From an uncultured Chloroflexota bacterium (GTDB lineage: Bacteria > Chloroflexota > Dehalococcoidia > Lucifugimonadales > CAJXCD01): a stretch of DNA of 64,000 nucleotides. The notes below the pieces were generated by a model. The model worked only from the letters and a program-made list of their open reading frames with translations. It had not been told where the DNA came from and did no database searches. Each line of letters opens with the position of its first letter. Position 1 is the first letter of the stretch. A program made the translations under genes and the position numbers. Where the stretch lies: positions 1 through 64,000 of the forward strand of contig CAJXCD010000003.1 in NCBI GenBank assembly GCA_913051545.1, in the 5' to 3' direction. Positions 12,287-28,254 of the stretch are shown here, in pieces.

Positions 12287-15200
12287 TTACGGAGTTATCG
12301 TTGGTCCTAGCTGGTCACCCAAGCTGTTTACTAAGACGTTATTAGGATCATCAACTATGAACGTCCAGTATGAACGGACCGGGCTAAGGATTCCACCAAG
12401 CGACTTCGACTGGAAGGTCTCAAAGATTGACGCATTGATATCGTCAGTTATAGAGGCATCTACTCTACGCTCAAACGTGAGAGCTGAAACCGCTAATTCG
12501 TAAGGTATCAAAGCACCCCTGAAGACCGAATCAAAACTAGTGTCTATCAGAATGTGCGGAGCTACTAGGTTGTATCCAACCCTGAGTTCCTGCTCTGGAG
12601 GCACTTCACCCTGCCTAAAGAACACACCCTGGATATTAAACTTGATTGGAACAGACTGCTTAGCAGTGAAGCCCGCAACTGAGACCTGCTTAAACACTTC
12701 AGTTGAACTAGAATCGTCAGCCACGTACGCAGTCTTAGCGTTGATTATCATTCCCTGGAACGGCTTAAGTTCAGTCAGAGTGTCTGCAGCACCATCACCT
12801 GGAGTATGTACTATGAAGTTACCCGCCTTGTTATAGGCAGAAGTACTCTCTATAACATCTCCTAGTTCCACGGTACCTGACAATTTGGTACCTAGCGCTT
12901 CGCTAACCTGACTGGTCACATCCTGACTCATTAGTCTGTCAAGACTGGCATCGTCAGTAGTTGAAGCGTCATCGTCATCCGGTATCAGAGCCAAGCCCAT
13001 GAAGTTATTACCCGGGAACAGGAAGTAGTTCCTGTTAGTCCTGGCAGACACAACATCAAACGAGCCCTCTACCGGCGCTTCGTTACCAGCCATGTCCCTT
13101 ACCGATACACTAATAGAGTTTAAACCTACCGGCGTACCTTCTGAGACTGTAGCTAAACCTACGTGACTTGTAACTTTACCATCTACCTCAGACAGTCCAT
13201 GCATCTCCAACAAGATGTCAGGCGTGTCACCCACTGTATCCAGCGGAATTCCATTAGTACCTTCTATTTCAAGTGTCGCAGACTCTACGCCTGACAGAGG
13301 ATCTGTAGCCGAGACCACTATGAAGTACTGGTCACCAACAACAGCCTCACCCGCACTTGTAACGGTAACTACAGCAACTGATGCCGTCGGCGCAGTTAGG
13401 TCTGCTATAGACGTTAGTGTCGTACTCGCCGACAAGCCACCACCGTCAGTAGCCCTTGCTACGAACGTGTTAGTACCTTCCTGCAAACTGACACCGAAGG
13501 AGAATGCACCTTCTGAAGTCACCTTACCAATCACCACAGAACTCGTCGCTCCCGCAGGAGTAGTTAAGTTATGAGTGATCTCCATTAAAGCACCCGGTGC
13601 ATTGATGGTAGGTTCCTTCAATGTACCTTGCAACGTCTGTATAACCTGGTTGGTATTACTAGGTACGTTAGAAAGCGTAATAACCGGAGCTATAGTATCA
13701 ACGAATCCCTGTGCCTGAGCTGAGCCGCTCAAGTTAGGACTGTAGCTCTGAACAGCAGTGGCGACCACCGTGTTCTCACCCTCAGCCAACGGGAATGGGT
13801 AGCTAAACTCTCTGTACAGAGTTGTACTCGTGCCATTAACGTTAGCCACTACTGGAGTAGCGAGAGCGGTTGTAGGAACTGTTATAGTCTTAGTTCCTGA
13901 ACCACTCAGGGTTATGTTATCTATGTACAAACCTGCACCTTCATTCGCCCACTCATCATTGGAATCAAAGGCGAACCTCACCTTGACTCTCTTGCCTGCC
14001 AGAGGAGACAAGTCGATTCCAACATCATGCTGCTCGCCCGGAGCGAACGGGAGAGGCGGTGCCTCAACCCACTGGAACAGGTCTGGATGCTCGTTATCTG
14101 GGAAAGGCATCCAGAACGGATCAACGAACTGGACTATCTGACCTATGGTCTGGAACTGACCAACAACGTCATTCCCCTGTAAGTCAGAGGTCACAGACGC
14201 GACCTGGATAAACTTCCTGTCCATGTCAGGCGGGAACTCTGTATCCCATGCAACTGAGAATCCCAGCTGGGAACCCATCGCTATCGGGTATACCTCTTTA
14301 CTGGTCAACGTTCCAGCAACTCTGGATCCTTCCTGGTTAAAGGAAGTGTCGCCAGCTTTACCGAACCGCCACGCAGAGTCTCCACAATCAGGACAGCTTC
14401 CTGTGTCATCTATATGCCATGAAACTGAACCATCGCCATGCGAAACTGCTCCAGTCCACAAAGCATTTGACGCTGATGCGTCATCAACATCGTCATTTAA
14501 GAACTCTGTAAACGGCAACTGGATACCAACACTAACCGAAGTGACGGCCGGGTCAGAAACCTTACCAGCAATCGTAGTGTTGGGCGTAGTAGCCACGAAG
14601 TTCTGGGTCGGCGACGTCAGCTGTATGGCAACGTTTGTGTTGCGTGCAACCGCATAAGACGCACTACTAGTGTACGTACTACCACCCTGATCCGCTGAGA
14701 ATGCCGTAGTGTAATTACCCACTATGGTCATCTCAACACCAGTGTTCTCAGGTAACGACGTACCTAAGACTGAGTTAGTAGCAGCATCCAACAAGAACAT
14801 GGTTGTACCAGAAATCGCGGTACCAACGATGTCCGCTCCAGTAATCTGATACTGGTCTGTCGCGACAGAATCAAAACCGTTCGTTAAGTCAAGCCGTGTA
14901 ATCCTATCGTTTAAGTTCCCGTAGTTTGAAGCACCAGCGATAATTAGCCTGCGGTCGTTATCAAAGTCGCTGTCAGGCGCAATATCTACAGAATTAATCG
15001 CATTGAGCCTGGTTAGTGAACCTTCAAACTGGTTAACTTCCTCTACAACAGCTCCAGCTATCATCTTTCCAAAAATTTCTACCATATCGTAATTGTAAGG
15101 ATTTATCCTGTACAGGAAGCCTTCCATGCCTCTGTCGGGATCCCCATCAGATCCTGCCCACAGGTTAGTCCCATCACTCGCTAAACCACCGAGTAATCCC

Positions 15201-18200
15201 GTGAATATCTCGGCAGGCATGTGGTCGTCCCACCTAATTACAAGAGGATTCCGGGAATTCACTGTACCGCTGTCCTTGTCTAACTGGTACAACACAGGAA
15301 TCTGCATTTGCATGACACCACCACCAGGCATTTCTATAGACTGGTTACCATTGTCAAGCACCCACAGTATGCCATCCTGTATAGCCAAACCGTAAGTCTC
15401 GCTATTAGGCGAGTCAAAGGAGGCTATCACCGTCGCAGTAGTAGTAGAGACACTCATCTTGAGTATCTTGTCTACAGGGCTGGCATCAACAGCTACCCAC
15501 ATTGTGTTGCCGTCAAGTGCCATTGCTCTAGGTGTGTTAGTTATGGTAATAGTCGGCAACGGAACAAGAGCTTTGTATACCTTCTTAGTCGTAGCATCTG
15601 CTACGTAAAGGTTATTACCCACAAAGTCGATACCGGATATATCACCCAGTGCATTGCTGCCCGGATCCTGTATATCCCAATTGTCTATAATCTGACCATC
15701 CTCGTCTGAACGGTAGATTGTCCCATACTTGGAAAGGAAGTACTGAGGTGTAGACGTAGAGTAAGCTATGTCGCTAAAGCCTTCCTCCATCCAACCTGGC
15801 TGACCAGGATTGAATAAGTACAGTTCGTTAGTCCTATTACCATTATTCTGGTTATAGTTGTCTATTCTTGGACCACCGTGCTGGCTGGTTGCAACAAGGT
15901 CGTCTCCATTACTCGTCAACCCTGGAACACCACCCATATCGGTCCCTATCTGGAATCCGGAATTGTCAGCCAGAGAGAAGTCACTGGCATTAAGTACAGT
16001 TACTTCCTGAGGGGGCGGACCCATGAAACCGCGCTCTTCCGCTACGATGTATACCCTGCCATCGTGGTAGGCAACAGCAGATCCTTCCTCACTATTTATA
16101 ACGTAGTATTTCTCTTCACCGTCAGCGGTAATAATAGCACCAGTAGACGGATTAACAGCTACAACAGCGTCACCACCATTACCATCAACCAGGATGTACA
16201 ACTCACCATCGTCAAAGTTGTACGCTAAGTCTACAGGCGTGTTAGTTATCGGTGACGGAGGAACAGCTGTCGATATGTATCCATCAGTCCCGTCATTCCA
16301 CCCCATGTATATAACGCTGGTATCAGGATGTATAGCCATACCCTGAACGTTTTGAACGCCTCCCGTCAGAGTGTAAGCCTTAGCAGGCCAAATCTCTTGA
16401 CCGAACGGGTTGATCCAAAGCTGGACATCACCTTCTTTTGCTGTCCAATAAGTATTGTCTCCCTGTATGAAGTCAACAGCGTCAGCACCTCCCAGAGCGT
16501 ACTGGTCCATGCTCTCCCGGTCGACATTACCATCAGTATTTATGTACCAGAACCTCTCCATCTGTGAGGACGAAGCTATTAGCTGCGTCCCGTTATTTGC
16601 AAGGCCCCCAGGCGTATCACACATCTGCATTCCGCCACCGCCACCGCCACCCATATGAGGACCATGCATGCCACCGCAAAGGTTATATGCATTTAATTCC
16701 GCACCCGTTACAGGGTTTAATTTCCACAGCTTGTTATCGTACCCGGAAGTTCCAATTGCCCATAGGGCATTATCAAGGAACGTGATTCCAGTAATAGTAC
16801 TACTCGGCAATTCAGCCGAACCGTTCTTAGTGTCATCACTTCCAAAGTTAGTATCTGGGGAGTAACCAGAAATACTAACCTTTATAACCCTGTCCTTAGG
16901 AGCACCGTCAACTAATACCCAAAGGGCTGCTCCTACATTTGTACCCTGGTAGAAAGCCGAGGAAGGCGATATAGCCATTCCTTGAGGCTTCGTGGTAATC
17001 GACGACGCGAAAGCACTGGCGGTAATGTAACCAGCGTTGCTCTGCGTACGAGCAATGTAGAGGACGTCCTGACCAAAAGTCATTCCGTGAACGTTACCAC
17101 TCATAGTACTACCACCAAGAGTAATAGTTTGGTCACTCTCGAAGGAGTTAAGGTCCGAACTCAATGCCATCAAAGAGCTACCGCTAGCTCCGTACAAAGT
17201 AGTCCTGGCCTCGTGATAAGCCAACGCCTTGAGACCAAATGTCATTGAACAGCAAGGCCAACCTTCAGCGACCCGTTCACCATTGGAAGGGTTAACCTTC
17301 CAAACATTGCTGTTAGTCTTAGCAGAAATTATGAGATTTTCTCCATCGTAAGTTATGCCACCCACGTCATCCCATATCTGCGCACTACTCTCAAGGTCTG
17401 TAGTACTCGCAACCACATTGGTCTTTACATTGTATTTATAGAGGTTTTTCCTCTTATTCCAAGCATCCCCGGACTCATCATTTGCGATTATGTACAGGAA
17501 ATTATCGTTACCCTCTGACACAAACGCAAGACCTTCCGTACCGCCGCTAGGTGCGTCCGCGATGCCGTCGCTGTCGAAGCTGGTATTAAGCGAACCGTCT
17601 GCAGTATTAACCCTTAGAATCTGATCGAAAGGCTCAGCATCAACTAGAACCCATACGGACTCGTTGCCACCTAACCCCGTTGCATCCGAGGAACTCCAGG
17701 CAATACCCCTAGGCTGCGTCGTAACCGATGCAGAAATAAAGGAGTGATACACTCTGGTTCCAGAAACAAGCCAGAGGTCATTGTATGGGCTGGAATCACT
17801 AAACGTCATACCCTGTATGTCGCTCATGGCCGTGCCACCACTAGCCGCAGCAAGGTTCGCAGTTCCAGTCTGATTAAATGTCGTATCTAGTTTTGATAAC
17901 TCCGTACCGTTAACCGCGTAGTAAGTCTTCTGAACAGGGTGATAAGCGATACCCTTGGAACCTTGCCAACTGGGACCATTCACCCAATTCTGACTAACCT
18001 GCTCACCAGTCGTAGAGATCTTGTATACGTCGTTGAAGTTAGTCTTCGTCCAAACGACTAAGTTTGTACCGTCATTGGTTATATCACCCAAGTCATCCCA
18101 GACCGACGCAGTGTCAGTAAGGTTCTTGGGGTAATTTGATTCAACCGCACCTGTCGTAGCATTAACCTTGTATAACTGCCTGGATTGGTCACAACAACCG

Positions 18201-20080
18201 CTACCTTCATTGGCAATTATATATAGGTATCCATCGAAGTATTCTATACCCTCAGTGTCGGCACTAGGCGCCTGCGCCCAGCCGTCATCAGAGAAGTTAG
18301 TTACCAGACTTCCATCTGAAGGATCAACCTTCAGAATGTAGTCCTTAGGAGACCCATCAACGAGCATCCAAAGGGATTCCGTGCTCGCTACCGTAGAGAA
18401 AGCAATTCCCTTAGAACTGACGGGAGAATCGACTGAAGCGCCAACGAACGTGGCATACACCTTACCATCCGCGTTACTCGTGAAATACATTGTGTCGCCA
18501 TCGAAAGTCAGGGACTTAATCGCGCTCTTACCGACATCAACGGTCTGAATCTTCGAACCAGCATCGGTCCACTGAGTTACGTCAGATCCATCCGCCGTGT
18601 ATATAAGGTTAGAGGCAAACGCTATAGCCTTTGCCTGCGTCCACTCACCTTCATTATCATCTAGCTCAATACCACTAGCTGAGATGTTGCGGAACCTATT
18701 ACCAAACTCATCAACCGTCCACAGGTCACCAGACCCACCAACGGTTAGACCAGCAAATTGATCCCAGTCCTGTCCCGCGTGGATTAGAGCCGTAACTTTA
18801 TTACTGGACCCTGCAGTCCAAGATGAATCATTTCCATTAGACGGCAAGTCTCCAGAGCTGGCTATTTTAAATATCCTTGACTGGTACTGACAGTTATCTG
18901 TCTCAATCTCGTCCCAACACCTGTTTTGGTTCTCCAGAACAAAAATAGACGAACCAACAGCTGCAACACCATCAAAACCAGTACTAGGAAGCGTGGTACT
19001 TGAACTTAATGTGTAATCACTTCCGCTTACCTTCAAGAGAGAGTCATTACTTACACCCGCTACGATAAACCAAAAGTCATCACCGTCATGAGCCATTCCT
19101 TTAACGACCTGAGCCGTAGAAGTGGTCCCATCAGTAGCGGGAACTACGAATTGCTCATCAGCACCTGAACCAAACGACGTAATGCTAGAAGTAGCTACCG
19201 TAGGCGCAGGTATTGCAAATGAGTCAGTTCCTTCAGGGAAACTAGCCGCAGTAGAAGTAGCGGCAGACAAAGTAGGTATAGCGAAACCGAGCGATGAAGT
19301 CGCACCAGTGCCCATGTAGGCAGTAGACGCAGGTAAAGCATCAACGGCATCAGGAGCATTTGTAGACAGTTCTATGGTAGGAACTGCAACCGCTGAGTCA
19401 GAGGAAGGCAAGGCAGTACCTGCTACCTCACCAGCTGTCGGTACAGCACCTGAATTAGTACTCCAAGCCGCATCCGTAGAAGGCATCTTTGTCCCGACGG
19501 CATCAGACGGAGGAGCAAGTGTTGGAATCGTAAAGTAGGTGTCGGTGTTTGGTATCAACGTCAAATCCGGAATCGGATCTAGTAAAACATCAGGAGTCCA
19601 CTGTACGACGTAATCAATCGTGCCTCCCCCTGATCCACCAGTGACAGTTACTTCCTCACTAAGAGATCCAGGAAGAGTTCCTGCCAGCGTGCTTGGCAAC
19701 GTGCCATCGCCCGCACTACCGGATACATTGTCGTAGGTTACTTTTACCAAAAGGTCCCCTGAAATGCTCGAAGAGGAGTAATCCACGAAGGTTCCACCAG
19801 TCTCCTCTCCAGGCAGGGTCACAGTAAAAGCCTGTGGACCTGTGGTATTTGCGAGAGTTATGCCTGAAATGGTGACCTCCTGGTCAGCATCCACAGACAG
19901 AGCCCCTGTGAAGACTATAGTCTCGCCCAAAAGGTATTGGGACGAGCTAGCCGCCAAAGCGACATCTGAGTTTGAGTCCAAAGCATGAGTCACGCCACGG
20001 TTCAGTACCATAGACAGAACCAGCAGCGAAACCATGAGAACTACAGACGTTAAAACATTCCTACTAAATGTTAAATTCAT
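12287..20080 (-). CDS. Giant secreted beta-propeller and Ig-domain surface protein
   Basis: A 2597-residue exported protein of unknown function. The N-terminal signal peptide ends near THALDSNS. A beta-rich N-terminal region is followed by six related modules of about 230-250 residues, starting near 19110, 18420, 17720, 16995, 16247 and 15542. Each opens with a (K/R)GIA-like strand then a WVLVDGxPKDxILKV-like strand and resembles NHL/YVTN propeller blades. Next come an Ig-like domain, a jelly-roll domain (about 13900-14490, ending in AGLYIDNI), two more Ig-like domains with an AGNEAP loop, and a unique C-terminal region of about 250 residues. No C-terminal membrane helix. ATG at 20080 is chosen because AGGTGA lies 5 bases upstream. 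Sampled GC (47-60%) exceeds that of neighbours (about 33-45%). Confidence 0.85.
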   Translation of the reverse strand: MNLTFSRNVLTSVVLMVSLLVLSMVLNRGVTHALDSNSDVALAASSSQYLLGETIVFTGALSVDADQEVTISGITLANTTGPQAFTVTLPGEETGGTFVDYSSSSISGDLLVKVTYDNVSGSAGDGTLPSTLAGTLPGSLSEEVTVTGGSGGGTIDYVVQWTPDVLLDPIPDLTLIPNTDTYFTIPTLAPPSDAVGTKMPSTDAAWSTNSGAVPTAGEVAGTALPSSDSAVAVPTIELSTNAPDAVDALPASTAYMGTGATSSLGFAIPTLSAATSTAASFPEGTDSFAIPAPTVATSSITSFGSGADEQFVVPATDGTTSTAQVVKGMAHDGDDFWFIVAGVSNDSLLKVSGSDYTLSSSTTLPSTGFDGVAAVGSSIFVLENQNRCWDEIETDNCQYQSRIFKIASSGDLPSNGNDSSWTAGSSNKVTALIHAGQDWDQFAGLTVGGSGDLWTVDEFGNRFRNISASGIELDDNEGEWTQAKAIAFASNLIYTADGSDVTQWTDAGSKIQTVDVGKSAIKSLTFDGDTMYFTSNADGKVYATFVGASVDSPVSSKGIAFSTVASTESLWMLVDGSPKDYILKVDPSDGSLVTNFSDDGWAQAPSADTEGIEYFDGYLYIIANEGSGCCDQSRQLYKVNATTGAVESNYPKNLTDTASVWDDLGDITNDGTNLVVWTKTNFNDVYKISTTGEQVSQNWVNGPSWQGSKGIAYHPVQKTYYAVNGTELSKLDTTFNQTGTANLAAASGGTAMSDIQGMTFSDSSPYNDLWLVSGTRVYHSFISASVTTQPRGIAWSSSDATGLGGNESVWVLVDAEPFDQILRVNTADGSLNTSFDSDGIADAPSGGTEGLAFVSEGNDNFLYIIANDESGDAWNKRKNLYKYNVKTNVVASTTDLESSAQIWDDVGGITYDGENLIISAKTNSNVWKVNPSNGERVAEGWPCCSMTFGLKALAYHEARTTLYGASGSSLMALSSDLNSFESDQTITLGGSTMSGNVHGMTFGQDVLYIARTQSNAGYITASAFASSITTKPQGMAISPSSAFYQGTNVGAALWVLVDGAPKDRVIKVSISGYSPDTNFGSDDTKNGSAELPSSTITGITFLDNALWAIGTSGYDNKLWKLNPVTGAELNAYNLCGGMHGPHMGGGGGGGMQMCDTPGGLANNGTQLIASSSQMERFWYINTDGNVDRESMDQYALGGADAVDFIQGDNTYWTAKEGDVQLWINPFGQEIWPAKAYTLTGGVQNVQGMAIHPDTSVIYMGWNDGTDGYISTAVPPSPITNTPVDLAYNFDDGELYILVDGNGGDAVVAVNPSTGAIITADGEEKYYVINSEEGSAVAYHDGRVYIVAEERGFMGPPPQEVTVLNASDFSLADNSGFQIGTDMGGVPGLTSNGDDLVATSQHGGPRIDNYNQNNGNRTNELYLFNPGQPGWMEEGFSDIAYSTSTPQYFLSKYGTIYRSDEDGQIIDNWDIQDPGSNALGDISGIDFVGNNLYVADATTKKVYKALVPLPTITITNTPRAMALDGNTMWVAVDASPVDKILKMSVSTTTATVIASFDSPNSETYGLAIQDGILWVLDNGNQSIEMPGGGVMQMQIPVLYQLDKDSGTVNSRNPLVIRWDDHMPAEIFTGLLGGLASDGTNLWAGSDGDPDRGMEGFLYRINPYNYDMVEIFGKMIAGAVVEEVNQFEGSLTRLNAINSVDIAPDSDFDNDRRLIIAGASNYGNLNDRITRLDLTNGFDSVATDQYQITGADIVGTAISGTTMFLLDAATNSVLGTSLPENTGVEMTIVGNYTTAFSADQGGSTYTSSASYAVARNTNVAIQLTSPTQNFVATTPNTTIAGKVSDPAVTSVSVGIQLPFTEFLNDDVDDASASNALWTGAVSHGDGSVSWHIDDTGSCPDCGDSAWRFGKAGDTSFNQEGSRVAGTLTSKEVYPIAMGSQLGFSVAWDTEFPPDMDRKFIQVASVTSDLQGNDVVGQFQTIGQIVQFVDPFWMPFPDNEHPDLFQWVEAPPLPFAPGEQHDVGIDLSPLAGKRVKVRFAFDSNDEWANEGAGLYIDNITLSGSGTKTITVPTTALATPVVANVNGTSTTLYREFSYPFPLAEGENTVVATAVQSYSPNLSGSAQAQGFVDTIAPVITLSNVPSNTNQVIQTLQGTLKEPTINAPGALMEITHNLTTPAGATSSVVIGKVTSEGAFSFGVSLQEGTNTFVARATDGGGLSASTTLTSIADLTAPTASVAVVTVTSAGEAVVGDQYFIVVSATDPLSGVESATLEIEGTNGIPLDTVGDTPDILLEMHGLSEVDGKVTSHVGLATVSEGTPVGLNSISVSVRDMAGNEAPVEGSFDVVSARTNRNYFLFPGNNFMGLALIPDDDDASTTDDASLDRLMSQDVTSQVSEALGTKLSGTVELGDVIESTSAYNKAGNFIVHTPGDGAADTLTELKPFQGMIINAKTAYVADDSSSTEVFKQVSVAGFTAKQSVPIKFNIQGVFFRQGEVPPEQELRVGYNLVAPHILIDTSFDSVFRGALIPYELAVSALTFERRVDASITDDINASIFETFQSKSLGGILSPVRSYWTFIVDDPNNVLVNSLGDQLGPTITP

Positions 20081-20284
20081 CACCTTCACCTATTCTCCAC
20101 TTTTTAAAATTTCCTACTTTTAGTTTCTTTGTCTATTTGAAAATGGCGTCCCATTTTGGTCTCTCACTAGTCATTTACATGCTATCCGACCTCTACGTGC
20201 ACGCAACTGTTACTTCACGTCCATAGACTAAATTTGTCCATTTTCACACAGCAAGACTTGCAGACACGGAGTACGCCGCATGCA

Positions 20285-25455: not shown

Positions 25456-25809
25456 TCAGGATTTCTCAGTCTCTGATTCTTCAGTGGGCGATCTGTCCAC
25501 TAAAGAATCAGACGCCTTAGATATTTGAGTGGCTAGTCTTTCAGCTACAGGGCCTACTTTTTCCGCCATTTCATCAACTACTGGTCCTACTCGCTCCCTG
25601 ACCGCTTCTACAGCGGGGCCTACATTTTCCCTCAAGTTTTCAGCCGCATCTCCAGCTCTGGTACGCAAGGAGTCACTGTGATTTGCAAGTTCAGCCCTAG
25701 TTTCAGCACCCGACTTAGGAGCAATTAAAATCCCGACTACAGCACCAACTATACCCCCTAAGAGAAATCCAGATACAAACGAACTCCCTCCACCGTCGTT
25801 AGCCATCAC
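25456..25809 (-). CDS. YtxH-like envelope protein
   Basis: A 117-residue protein. A Gly-rich hydrophobic helix (VSGFLLGGIVGAVVGILIAP) is followed by KSGAETR, the YtxH-family pattern. After it comes an amphipathic charged tail with three VGP-containing repeats of about 11-14 residues, likely helical. Its start overlaps the end of the preceding gene by 11 bases. YtxH proteins are general-stress-associated in Bacillus. The role here is unknown. Confidence 0.7.
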   Translation of the reverse strand: MMANDGGGSSFVSGFLLGGIVGAVVGILIAPKSGAETRAELANHSDSLRTRAGDAAENLRENVGPAVEAVRERVGPVVDEMAEKVGPVAERLATQISKASDSLVDRSPTEESETEKS

Positions 25810-26050
25810 GATCTCCTCTCTTTTTATTCAATCCCAGAATCAATCCCACTAACCTACCAATACCACTGATTGACCCAGAATTGTATATAGTCTCCGCCAC
25901 ATCCTCTACCCTACTCACCATTAATCTAACAGAGGATAATATGCCATATATCTTCCTGAATGAAAGTGTCAAGAAAACCAACATAGACGTTATCCCTACT
26001 ATGATAAGGATATCTCTAACGAGTGCTAAAATCTCAGATAATTGATCCAT
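25799..26050 (-). CDS. Small single-pass membrane protein upstream of the YtxH-like gene
   Basis: About 83 residues from the ATG at 26050. One hydrophobic helix (ILIIVGITSMLVFLTLSF) is followed by a helical stretch and a basic end (LNKKRGDRDG). Position and shape resemble the YtxG/DUF948 proteins that pair with YtxH, but I see no decisive motif. GAGGG lies 11 bases upstream of this ATG. Earlier in-frame starts exist (up to 26089) but add only a poorly conserved-looking tail. It overlaps the next gene by 11 bases. Confidence 0.55.
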   Translation of the reverse strand: MDQLSEILALVRDILIIVGITSMLVFLTLSFRKIYGILSSVRLMVSRVEDVAETIYNSGSISGIGRLVGLILGLNKKRGDRDG

Positions 26051-26241
26051 AATTACAATGCCCTCAAGACCTATCATCAATGGTAGCACGCCGATAATAG
26101 CTCAGCAATCGGTAAGTTTAAGTTACCTGTAGATTAATGGTTTGGAGCTAAATCCTCAGTACATGTAATTAAAAACGCTGTGGAACACATAAATGACAAG
26201 AAACAAGATTTAAAAAACGGTCTATAAGTTTGCGAATTGAT

Positions 26242-27225
26242 CTATGGCTTTATTAGGATTCTTGTAAAGCCCTCTTCATCTTCGCGTTGGGTGAGAACCT
26301 GGTGCATACCTTCTTCCGCCCACATAATTACGTCATATACATTTAGTATATCCGGCATTATCACTTCTACAAAAGATTCTTTATTATTAGATACGTGATC
26401 AGCAAGGGCTGCAAGGATTCCTGCACAGGTCCGACCTGTACCATCTATAACCGTCCATCCACCATCTAGTCCATTATCAGGATCGTTAAATTGCCCGTTA
26501 TTGCGGACCTTAATTTCTCCACTTTCTCTCATCTGAATTTGGAGCTTAAAATTAGATACCGCCTCCCAATGTACCCCATCGTTCCTATTCCCTTTAGAGC
26601 AAGCTGCACCACGTACGCCAACTATATCGGGATTGATGCGAGACAACTCATCAAGATTCTCTATCTTTAGATGCCCTGACAGGGCCGTACTCATACCGAG
26701 TTTTTTTCCTTGAAAAACCATGTCTCTTAGTTCATCCTCTGAAAGAAAATCAAAAAGATTTCTACCATCTTTAGTCAAAGTATCTATTAAAAACCCATCG
26801 CATTCACCATCTCTAGCTAGACTAACCATCTCATGTGAATCTAGACCATCATATAGTGAGTTATCCGCAAATAAGGATCCAATCAGCTTTGTTTCTGATC
26901 CCTCCAAAGCCCTTTTTGATGCTTTGAGAATTTCTACAGCCTCATCGTAACCGGTATCCATAAATCCAACTTTGACAGATGTGGCTTTAAGGAGACCTGC
27001 GGAGTAAACCGCCATTGCCACAGTACCAACTTGATTAGGTACAACACCTAGGGTAACACTAGCATGATGATCTTGCGGAACAGCTTCTCGAACCTGTTTG
27101 ACGAGGTATGGTTCAGCAGATCCCACTAGAGCCTCCTGTAAATTCTTCACATCCACTATATCTGCTCCACCCTTCAAAGCCTGAAATGCCTCGTCCAAAT
27201 TTTGGACACTAACCATCAAAATCAT
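26242..27225 (-). CDS. MfnB-like furan synthase fused to a TusA-like domain
   Basis: A 327-residue two-domain protein. Residues 1-235 match the MfnB family ((5-formylfuran-3-yl)methyl phosphate synthase, methanofuran pathway): MVSVQNLDEAFQALKGGADIVDVKN at the N-terminus has the family's GGADIxDVKN with the active-site Lys. Residues 250-327 look like TusA: VIDGTGRTCAGILAAL, then MPDILNVYDVIMWAEEG and RILIKP, with the sulfur-carrying Cys but Ala in place of the Pro of CPxP. Start ATG at 27225 has AAGGGG 8 bases upstream. It is 48 bases after the DapA-like gene and probably cotranscribed. The combination of functions is not known to me. Confidence 0.7.
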   Translation of the reverse strand: MILMVSVQNLDEAFQALKGGADIVDVKNLQEALVGSAEPYLVKQVREAVPQDHHASVTLGVVPNQVGTVAMAVYSAGLLKATSVKVGFMDTGYDEAVEILKASKRALEGSETKLIGSLFADNSLYDGLDSHEMVSLARDGECDGFLIDTLTKDGRNLFDFLSEDELRDMVFQGKKLGMSTALSGHLKIENLDELSRINPDIVGVRGAACSKGNRNDGVHWEAVSNFKLQIQMRESGEIKVRNNGQFNDPDNGLDGGWTVIDGTGRTCAGILAALADHVSNNKESFVEVIMPDILNVYDVIMWAEEGMHQVLTQREDEEGFTRILIKP

Positions 27226-27273: not shown

Positions 27274-28254
27274 CTATTTCTGACTGGACACATTTATTAT
27301 TGAAGATAATTGGCTTTTGAGTTCAGATTTTTCATCATCAAGCAGATCAACTAATGGTAATCTGACATGTCCGCCAGCCATACCCATAAGCTCTCCCCAA
27401 TATTTGCACATTGAAACAGGTAGTGACCCGTTGAATTTTTTGACGGTCTTTTGCCACCATTTATCTGAAATTTTCTTTAAAGGACTTATATTTGCAAGAT
27501 AAAATCCCTCATCCACATCTCCTTGAATCGCTCTGTTAACAAAACTAACGTAATTATTACATTCTGGTGTATCAAATCGCCAATCAGAAGTATTTGCAAA
27601 CATAACTTGCTGCTGAAATCCAAGCTCTTTACCCTTGAACAGAATCCATTCGTCTGGTGTACTTACCACACTTTCATTTCCAATCAATAGATGGACATCT
27701 ATAGATAATTGCCTGTCAAAACTAGCCTCTTTCACACCTACAACATTGGGAATGTCACACAAGCGCTTAAGTCCATCTGGGCTCACCACTATGCCAAACT
27801 GCGGAGAGTTATAAAACATTATTGCTAAGGAAGTATTTTCAGCCACATGACTCACGTATTGAACAATTTGCTCCTCCGTTTTAGTCACAAAATATGGTGC
27901 TGCAATTACCAATAGATCGAATCCTACGTTCTCAGCATGGTTAGCTAGCAACACAGTATCTTTGACGGAGGTATGGGTCACATGAGCAGCAGTAAATAAG
28001 GTATCTCCGGATTCATCAACAACTATATCGTAAACTCGAAGTCTTTCATCAATTGTGAGACTCCAAAATTCCCCCATACCCCACGTGCATCCTACACCCT
28101 GTGTTCCCAGGCTGAAGATACGCCTAATATTAGAGCGTAAGCCCAGTTCATCTATGTCATCATCCACAGTAAAAGGGGTGACCAAAGTAGACCATTGGCC
28201 CACCATAGTTTCTCTAGCCCAATCTAATGCTTCACCCTTGGAATATCTAGGCAC
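27274..28254 (-). CDS. DapA/NAL-family aldolase, substrate unknown
   Basis: A 326-residue TIM-barrel class I aldolase. The Schiff-base Lys is in GVKEAS and the catalytic Tyr in MFYNSP, both in the expected order. The motif that in true dihydrodipicolinate synthase reads GTTGE is here WGMGE, with both Thr lost, so lysine synthesis is unlikely and another 2-oxo-acid aldolase or dehydratase activity is more probable. It is about 30 residues longer than DapA. It is followed by the MfnB-TusA-like fusion. A C-terminal helical tail completes the fold. Confidence 0.8.
   Translation of the reverse strand: MPRYSKGEALDWARETMVGQWSTLVTPFTVDDDIDELGLRSNIRRIFSLGTQGVGCTWGMGEFWSLTIDERLRVYDIVVDESGDTLFTAAHVTHTSVKDTVLLANHAENVGFDLLVIAAPYFVTKTEEQIVQYVSHVAENTSLAIMFYNSPQFGIVVSPDGLKRLCDIPNVVGVKEASFDRQLSIDVHLLIGNESVVSTPDEWILFKGKELGFQQQVMFANTSDWRFDTPECNNYVSFVNRAIQGDVDEGFYLANISPLKKISDKWWQKTVKKFNGSLPVSMCKYWGELMGMAGGHVRLPLVDLLDDEKSELKSQLSSIINVSSQK

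Follow-up and report, generated by a model that had tools for sequence, protein, structure and literature searches.

The window, by which we mean the whole stretch of 64,000 nucleotides that was analysed, carries on its minus strand a gene for a protein of 327 amino acids in which an MfnB-like synthase is followed by a C-terminal TusA-like domain (positions 26242 to 27225; ORF call and Pfam). The coordinates given for this frame in the original prediction were correct, the coding strand being the minus one, and an ORF check of the same interval found no long frame on the plus strand. The protein consists of an MfnB / 4-HFC-P synthase-like TIM-barrel domain (residues 3-226; 26548 to 27219, minus strand; PF04476, MJ1099 and Foldseek match to 4rc1), a variable and flexible interdomain linker at about residues 241-256 (26458 to 26505, minus strand; alignment and pLDDT) and a TusA-like domain of the order beta-alpha-beta-alpha-beta-beta (residues 257-327; 26245 to 26457, minus strand; Pfam matches of relatives, AlphaFold and Foldseek). 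In the AlphaFold model of the linker, residues 243-254 have a pLDDT below 50. The gene located 48 bases upstream encodes a DHDPS/NAL-family class I aldolase of 326 amino acids (27274 to 28254, minus strand; PF00701).

A scan of the contigs of named genomes gave no match when the single sequence was used, and found 157 relatives, of which the best 80 were kept, when an alignment served as the query. All 80 cover residues 1-327 or nearly so, and their titles refer to the SAR202 cluster, the Dehalococcoidia or the Chloroflexi, except for three bins (L046, L081 and L093, with 'Planctomycetota' and 'Actinomycetota' titles), which are probably mislabelled because they are placed among SAR202 sequences in the tree. 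SAR202 bacteria are abundant in the ocean and mostly uncultured, and their metabolism is poorly known. Since the two-domain architecture recurs in 80 of 80 of these loci (the best 80 of 157), misassembly or a gene-call error was rejected as the source of the fusion. In 79 of the best 80 of the 157, the aldolase gene immediately precedes the synthase gene on the same strand, and in 22 of these 80 the aldolase, MfnB and TusA parts form one open reading frame of about 680-750 amino acids, that of L080 having 686; the fused proteins occupy one side of a branch of the tree (support 90), which corresponds to one change. The link between the aldolase and the fusion protein, also suggested originally, was thus confirmed by conserved adjacency and by triple fusions across SAR202. 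In one locus of the 80, L033, MfnB-TusA occurs with no aldolase within 10 kb and with CoA-transferase-like genes upstream. Loci L036 and L073 are two copies of the pair in a single bin with 10% contamination, and the second copy is probably a contaminant because its protein matches the L074 protein exactly.

Genomes sampled from the order overlap with the named loci, so that the counts from the two sets are not independent; full-length relatives with 60-75% identity were present in 22 of 40 of these genomes, and the synthase, the aldolase (matches of at least 53% identity) and the TusA-like domain were found in exactly the same 22. Of 250 genomes sampled from the order, 118 had PF04476 (120 matches) and 132 lacked it; in an even sample of 400 Chloroflexota genomes, only 2 had it. 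The frames that carry the 120 matches comprise 64 of 325-451 amino acids, 52 of at least 650 amino acids and four others, among which those of 155 and 567 amino acids run off contig ends; a stand-alone MfnB of about 230 amino acids was not found among the 120 matches in these 250 genomes.

The barrel matched PF04476 (4HFCP_synth) at residues 3-226 with an E-value of 3.6e-55 and 187.6 bits, above the curated cut-off of 22.4, and scored 192.6 bits, below the cut-off of 341, against the NCBIfam (5-formylfuran-3-yl)methyl phosphate synthase equivalog. The M. jannaschii MfnB, MJ1099 (PDB 4RC1/4U9P), was the sole convincing solved relative by sequence (E 1.5e-43, the match ending at residue 217), and Foldseek gave a TM score of 0.93 between the barrel and structure 4rc1. 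The alignment paired D25, K27, K85 and D151 of MJ1099, which we take to be catalytic or substrate residues, with D25, K27, K85 and D148 of the window protein, and K155 and R217 with K152 and R214. All six positions are invariant in 81 sequences, including Lys27, whose codon lies at 27145 to 27147 on the minus strand. Lys155 of MJ1099 (catalytic/substrate-binding) and Arg217 have been described (PMC11365854), and the codon of Lys152, the counterpart of Lys155, is at 26770 to 26772 on the minus strand.

Comparison with four outside sequences showed three replacements that are common to 81 of 81 SAR202 sequences. V61 lies in a GVVP motif where the MfnBs of M. jannaschii, Streptomyces and Thiodictyon have GDVP or GDLP, H185 lies in LSGH where the same enzymes have LAGS or LAGA, and Q65 takes the place of a lysine in M. 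jannaschii and Streptomyces and of another residue in Thiodictyon. An asparagine is present at position 122 in 78 of the 81 SAR202 domains, a position at which other residues are common to archaeal, Streptomyces or Thiodictyon MfnBs. From these sequence comparisons, the reaction type of the barrel is probably kept and a change of specificity through residues 61, 65, 122 and 185 is possible; because several positions common to other MfnBs are changed in SAR202, the exact substrate or product may differ from 4-HFC-P.

The C-terminal part was tested with profile and fold comparisons, both of which agreed with the earlier assignment of about the last 80 residues to TusA. Alone, the window protein gave a marginal match to PF01206 at residues 260-326 (E 0.028; 14.7 bits, below the cut-off of 28.6) and its isolated domain reached 19.1 bits against the same cut-off, which relatives L053, L080 and L095 pass with 29.1-31.1 bits. 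The C-termini of 56 of 56 relatives matched PF01206 at an E-value of 1 or less (1.7e-7 for the best), and three of the ten relatives scanned individually passed the curated cut-off. The AlphaFold model of the domain has a mean pLDDT of 92.6 and the beta-alpha-beta-alpha-beta-beta order given above. Its best solved match in Foldseek was E. coli TusA 1DCJ (probability 1.00; TM 0.79/0.72), and SirA-like 3HZ7 gave TM 0.83/0.82 with an rmsd of 1.5 A; the Foldseek E-values, 0.017 at best with a query of 73 residues, are weak by themselves. When the alignment of the C-terminal part was run as a profile against the PDB, only chance matches were returned (nicotinamide riboside kinase, E 1.4), so the assignment rests on Pfam and on the fold. 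Since 56 of 56 relatives match, 3 of 10 pass the cut-off and the fold fits TusA, the marginal match of the window protein is not due to chance, and the C-terminal part of this MfnB-like protein is a real TusA domain. Nor is it an ordinary MfnB extension, as the original prediction had also held: plasmid-borne MfnBs (Streptomyces, Rhizobium and others) matched the MfnB part only, over about residues 1-234 or to residue 259 at low identity, none of 37 records reached 80% coverage, and the Streptomyces and Thiodictyon MfnBs end without a TusA part.

The string TGRTCAG, reported earlier with an alanine after its cysteine, is present in this domain, and the cysteine is Cys267 (codon at 26425 to 26427, minus strand). 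This residue, present without exception in the 81 sequences, aligns with the cysteine of canonical TusA (Cys19) and stands at the N-terminus of helix 1, where helix H13-26 of the domain model begins. When a canonical TusA from a relative was used as the reference, Asp292 (77 of 81) and Asp298 (81 of 81), which span 26332 to 26352 on the minus strand, aligned with TusA Asp45 and Asp51 at the same six-residue spacing, and Trp302 and His308 (both 81 of 81) were common to the two proteins. In E. coli TusA, the conserved residues Asp45 and Asp51 are near Cys19 and contribute to the transfer of sulfur (PMC2854127); Arg50 of that protein corresponds to Tyr297 of the window protein in our own alignment. 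The CPxP motif described for TusA (PMC11073785) was not found; in nearly all sequences the residues after the cysteine read A-(G/S)-(I/V). The SAR202 domain shares with the TusA/SirA/YeeD family (PF01206; 1DCJ, 3HZ7, 3LVJ) the fold, the cysteine that opens helix 1, the aspartate pair and the Trp and His residues, whereas it differs by the loss of the CPxP prolines and by its fusion to a synthase. In 40 genomes of the order, every occurrence of the TusA-like domain was within this fusion. TusA was matched nowhere else in the window's genome, which also lacks a canonical TusA relay, and neither a cysteine desulfurase gene nor any further sulfur gene was observed in linkage with the synthase-aldolase pair.

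The aldolase belongs to the PF00701 superfamily (E 8.5e-31; 107 bits for a cut-off of 22). Like DHDPS/NAL enzymes such as DapA, NanA and KdgD, it has the Schiff-base lysine, Lys175 (codon at 27730 to 27732, minus strand; aligned with that of solved DHDPS), and Tyr148, both invariant in 78 sequences. In DapA, the TTGE motif binds pyruvate and the arginine after YN-P binds the substrate. The original prediction was right that TTGE is missing, since this position reads W-G-M-G-E (G-M-G-E at residues 59-62; 28069 to 28080, minus strand; alignment), with W58, G61 and E62 invariant in the 78 aldolases, and YN-P-Q-F is found in place of the YN-P-x-R of DapA. Together, GMGE and YN-P-Q-F imply that the aldolase should take a substrate other than that of DapA. 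The protein also differs from the family by a nearly invariant NTSDWRF block of its own and scored below every equivalog cut-off. A role as DapA (4-hydroxy-tetrahydrodipicolinate synthase) was ruled out by GMGE, by Gln-Phe after YN-P and by 88 bits against TIGR00674, the cut-off of which is 206. Models of 5-dehydro-4-deoxyglucarate dehydratase and of sugar-acid aldolases gave the best scores, none of which reached the cut-off.

Gene order around the pair differs between the split and the fused groups. The conserved outer neighbours recG, fakA/degV, pheA, Trk and YtxH were discounted as pathway partners, other genes being located there near many fused copies, and so were the UbiA/UbiD/UbiX-like genes located further off, which are replaced around many fused copies. 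Because the outer genes change in this way, only the aldolase/MfnB-TusA pair is a constant unit. About 20-30 of the 80 loci (the best 80 of 157) have genes resembling UbiD, UbiA and UbiX within 10 kb, which are possibly a quinone-biosynthesis block in shared synteny. After the synthase, at 25459-26089 on the minus strand, are genes for a YtxH-like protein (PF12732) and for a protein of 96 amino acids without Pfam match; YtxH-like genes are also present downstream in 27 loci. At 12287-20089, also on the minus strand, a repetitive protein of 2600 amino acids with weak matches to the NHL repeat and Glucodextran_B is encoded, and this protein is probably secreted.

The MfnB-like domain had been connected with methylofuran and H4MPT, and this connection fails. 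None of the 13 genomes tested, all of them carriers of the unit and 11 at least 90% complete, contained FTR, MCH, Fae or MfnF, and the methanogen controls were positive. Methylofuran-dependent C1 oxidation is thus very unlikely, and the lack of the usual furan-cofactor pathway points to a biosynthetic pathway not described so far. The SAR202 protein is like MJ1099 in its barrel and in the six residues kept, and unlike it in the added TusA domain, in V61, Q65 and H185, in its score below the equivalog cut-off and in the lack of a methanofuran pathway around it.

Our leading reading, which we put forward tentatively, is that the aldolase and MfnB-TusA constitute a dedicated three-module unit for a metabolite unrelated to methanofuran, with two subunits in the window and a single chain in a SAR202 sub-clade. 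A furan or similar aldehyde would undergo an aldol reaction with a 2-oxo acid, and the tethered TusA-like domain would deliver sulfur. The unit probably makes a metabolite derived from a furan aldehyde, and this metabolite possibly contains sulfur; the conserved Cys/Asp/Asp set agrees with a furan product of that kind. Because the catalytic residues are retained, the Lys/Asp set of the barrel would condense triose phosphates to 4-HFC-P or a close furan aldehyde. The linkage of the aldolase to MfnB-TusA suggests that it could then form a Schiff base at Lys175 and join the furan aldehyde with a 2-oxo acid, or cleave such an adduct. The conserved residues of the TusA domain suggest that Cys267 would take sulfur as a persulfide, with the assistance of Asp292 and Asp298, and pass it to the bound intermediate. 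An analogy points the same way: in the methanofuran pathway a transaminase acts on the aldehyde product of MfnB, and by its position the aldehyde dehydrogenase of a Streptomyces operon may do so too. Against this reading are the loss of CPxP, the changes at V61, Q65 and H185, the missed equivalog cut-off, the lack of a linked sulfur gene and the aldolase-free locus L033.

It is less probable, and on balance unlikely, that the TusA-like domain delivers no sulfur. Cys267 would then hold the aldehyde as a thiohemiacetal, or the domain would bind a ligand or a partner and tether the intermediate between the barrels, and the product would come from a plain, sulfur-free pathway from a furan aldehyde and a 2-oxo acid. 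This is consistent with the cysteine being kept though CPxP is lost, with the flexible linker, with a domain that never occurs outside the fusion in the 40 genomes and with the window's genome lacking a canonical TusA relay. However, both aspartates that serve sulfur transfer in TusA are kept at identical spacing, and plain tethering needs neither. A barrel that no longer forms a furan is more doubtful still; it would perform another Schiff-base aldol or elimination reaction on a related phosphate sugar, fed by the upstream aldolase, for example with glyceraldehyde-3-phosphate from a KDPG-like cleavage. The replacements V61, Q65, H185 and N122 at positions common to other MfnBs and the affinity of the aldolase for sugar-acid models, below cut-off, speak for it. 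Against it, each catalytic or substrate Lys, Asp and Arg that was compared is retained, and the fold fits MJ1099.

In the ThiG-ThiS system, a TIM barrel with a Schiff-base lysine takes sulfur from a small carrier protein. By analogy, the persulfide sulfur of Cys267 might enter the ring or the side chain during condensation to give a sulfur heterocycle (e.g. a thiophene) or a thio-furan, which we consider improbable; the analogy is mechanistic, with no sequence relation claimed, and ThiS, unlike TusA, is a beta-grasp thiocarboxylate carrier. If this were true, such a unit would supply a building block for a SAR202 cofactor or metabolite that is so far undescribed. An ordinary methanofuran/methylofuran enzyme with an incidental tail, for which PF04476 membership and the retained catalytic residues could be invoked, is very improbable. 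The four pathway proteins are absent from the 13 genomes, the tail folds as a TusA domain that all relatives conserve, and the partner is an aldolase, where that pathway would have an aminotransferase or a kinase.

Both domains and the aldolase belong to known families. Our search of the open-access literature, subscription papers being outside it, returned no MfnB-TusA fusion and no link of SAR202 to the unit, and to that extent the combination and its use outside methanofuran synthesis are undescribed. A conserved set of aldolase, furan synthase and sulfur carrier, at times in one chain, marks an undescribed pathway in which MfnB chemistry would be recruited away from C1 cofactors. The three domains in one protein are a directly testable enzyme, and the candidate substrates (triose phosphates, pyruvate, and cysteine with a desulfurase) are cheap.

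Streptomyces plasmids carry an operon in which MfnB is followed by genes for an aldehyde dehydrogenase, an alcohol dehydrogenase and a SAM methyltransferase (L116, 12001-16263 of NZ_CP108274.1; L117, 11980-16437 of NZ_CP108584.1). This operon resembles the SAR202 unit in that MfnB lies beside aldehyde-processing genes, with no methanofuran genes in the stretch read, whereas its MfnB is a stand-alone protein of about 250 amino acids, without TusA and without the aldolase. It is apparently a second use of MfnB outside methanofuran synthesis, and its product is perhaps a furan carboxylic acid metabolite.
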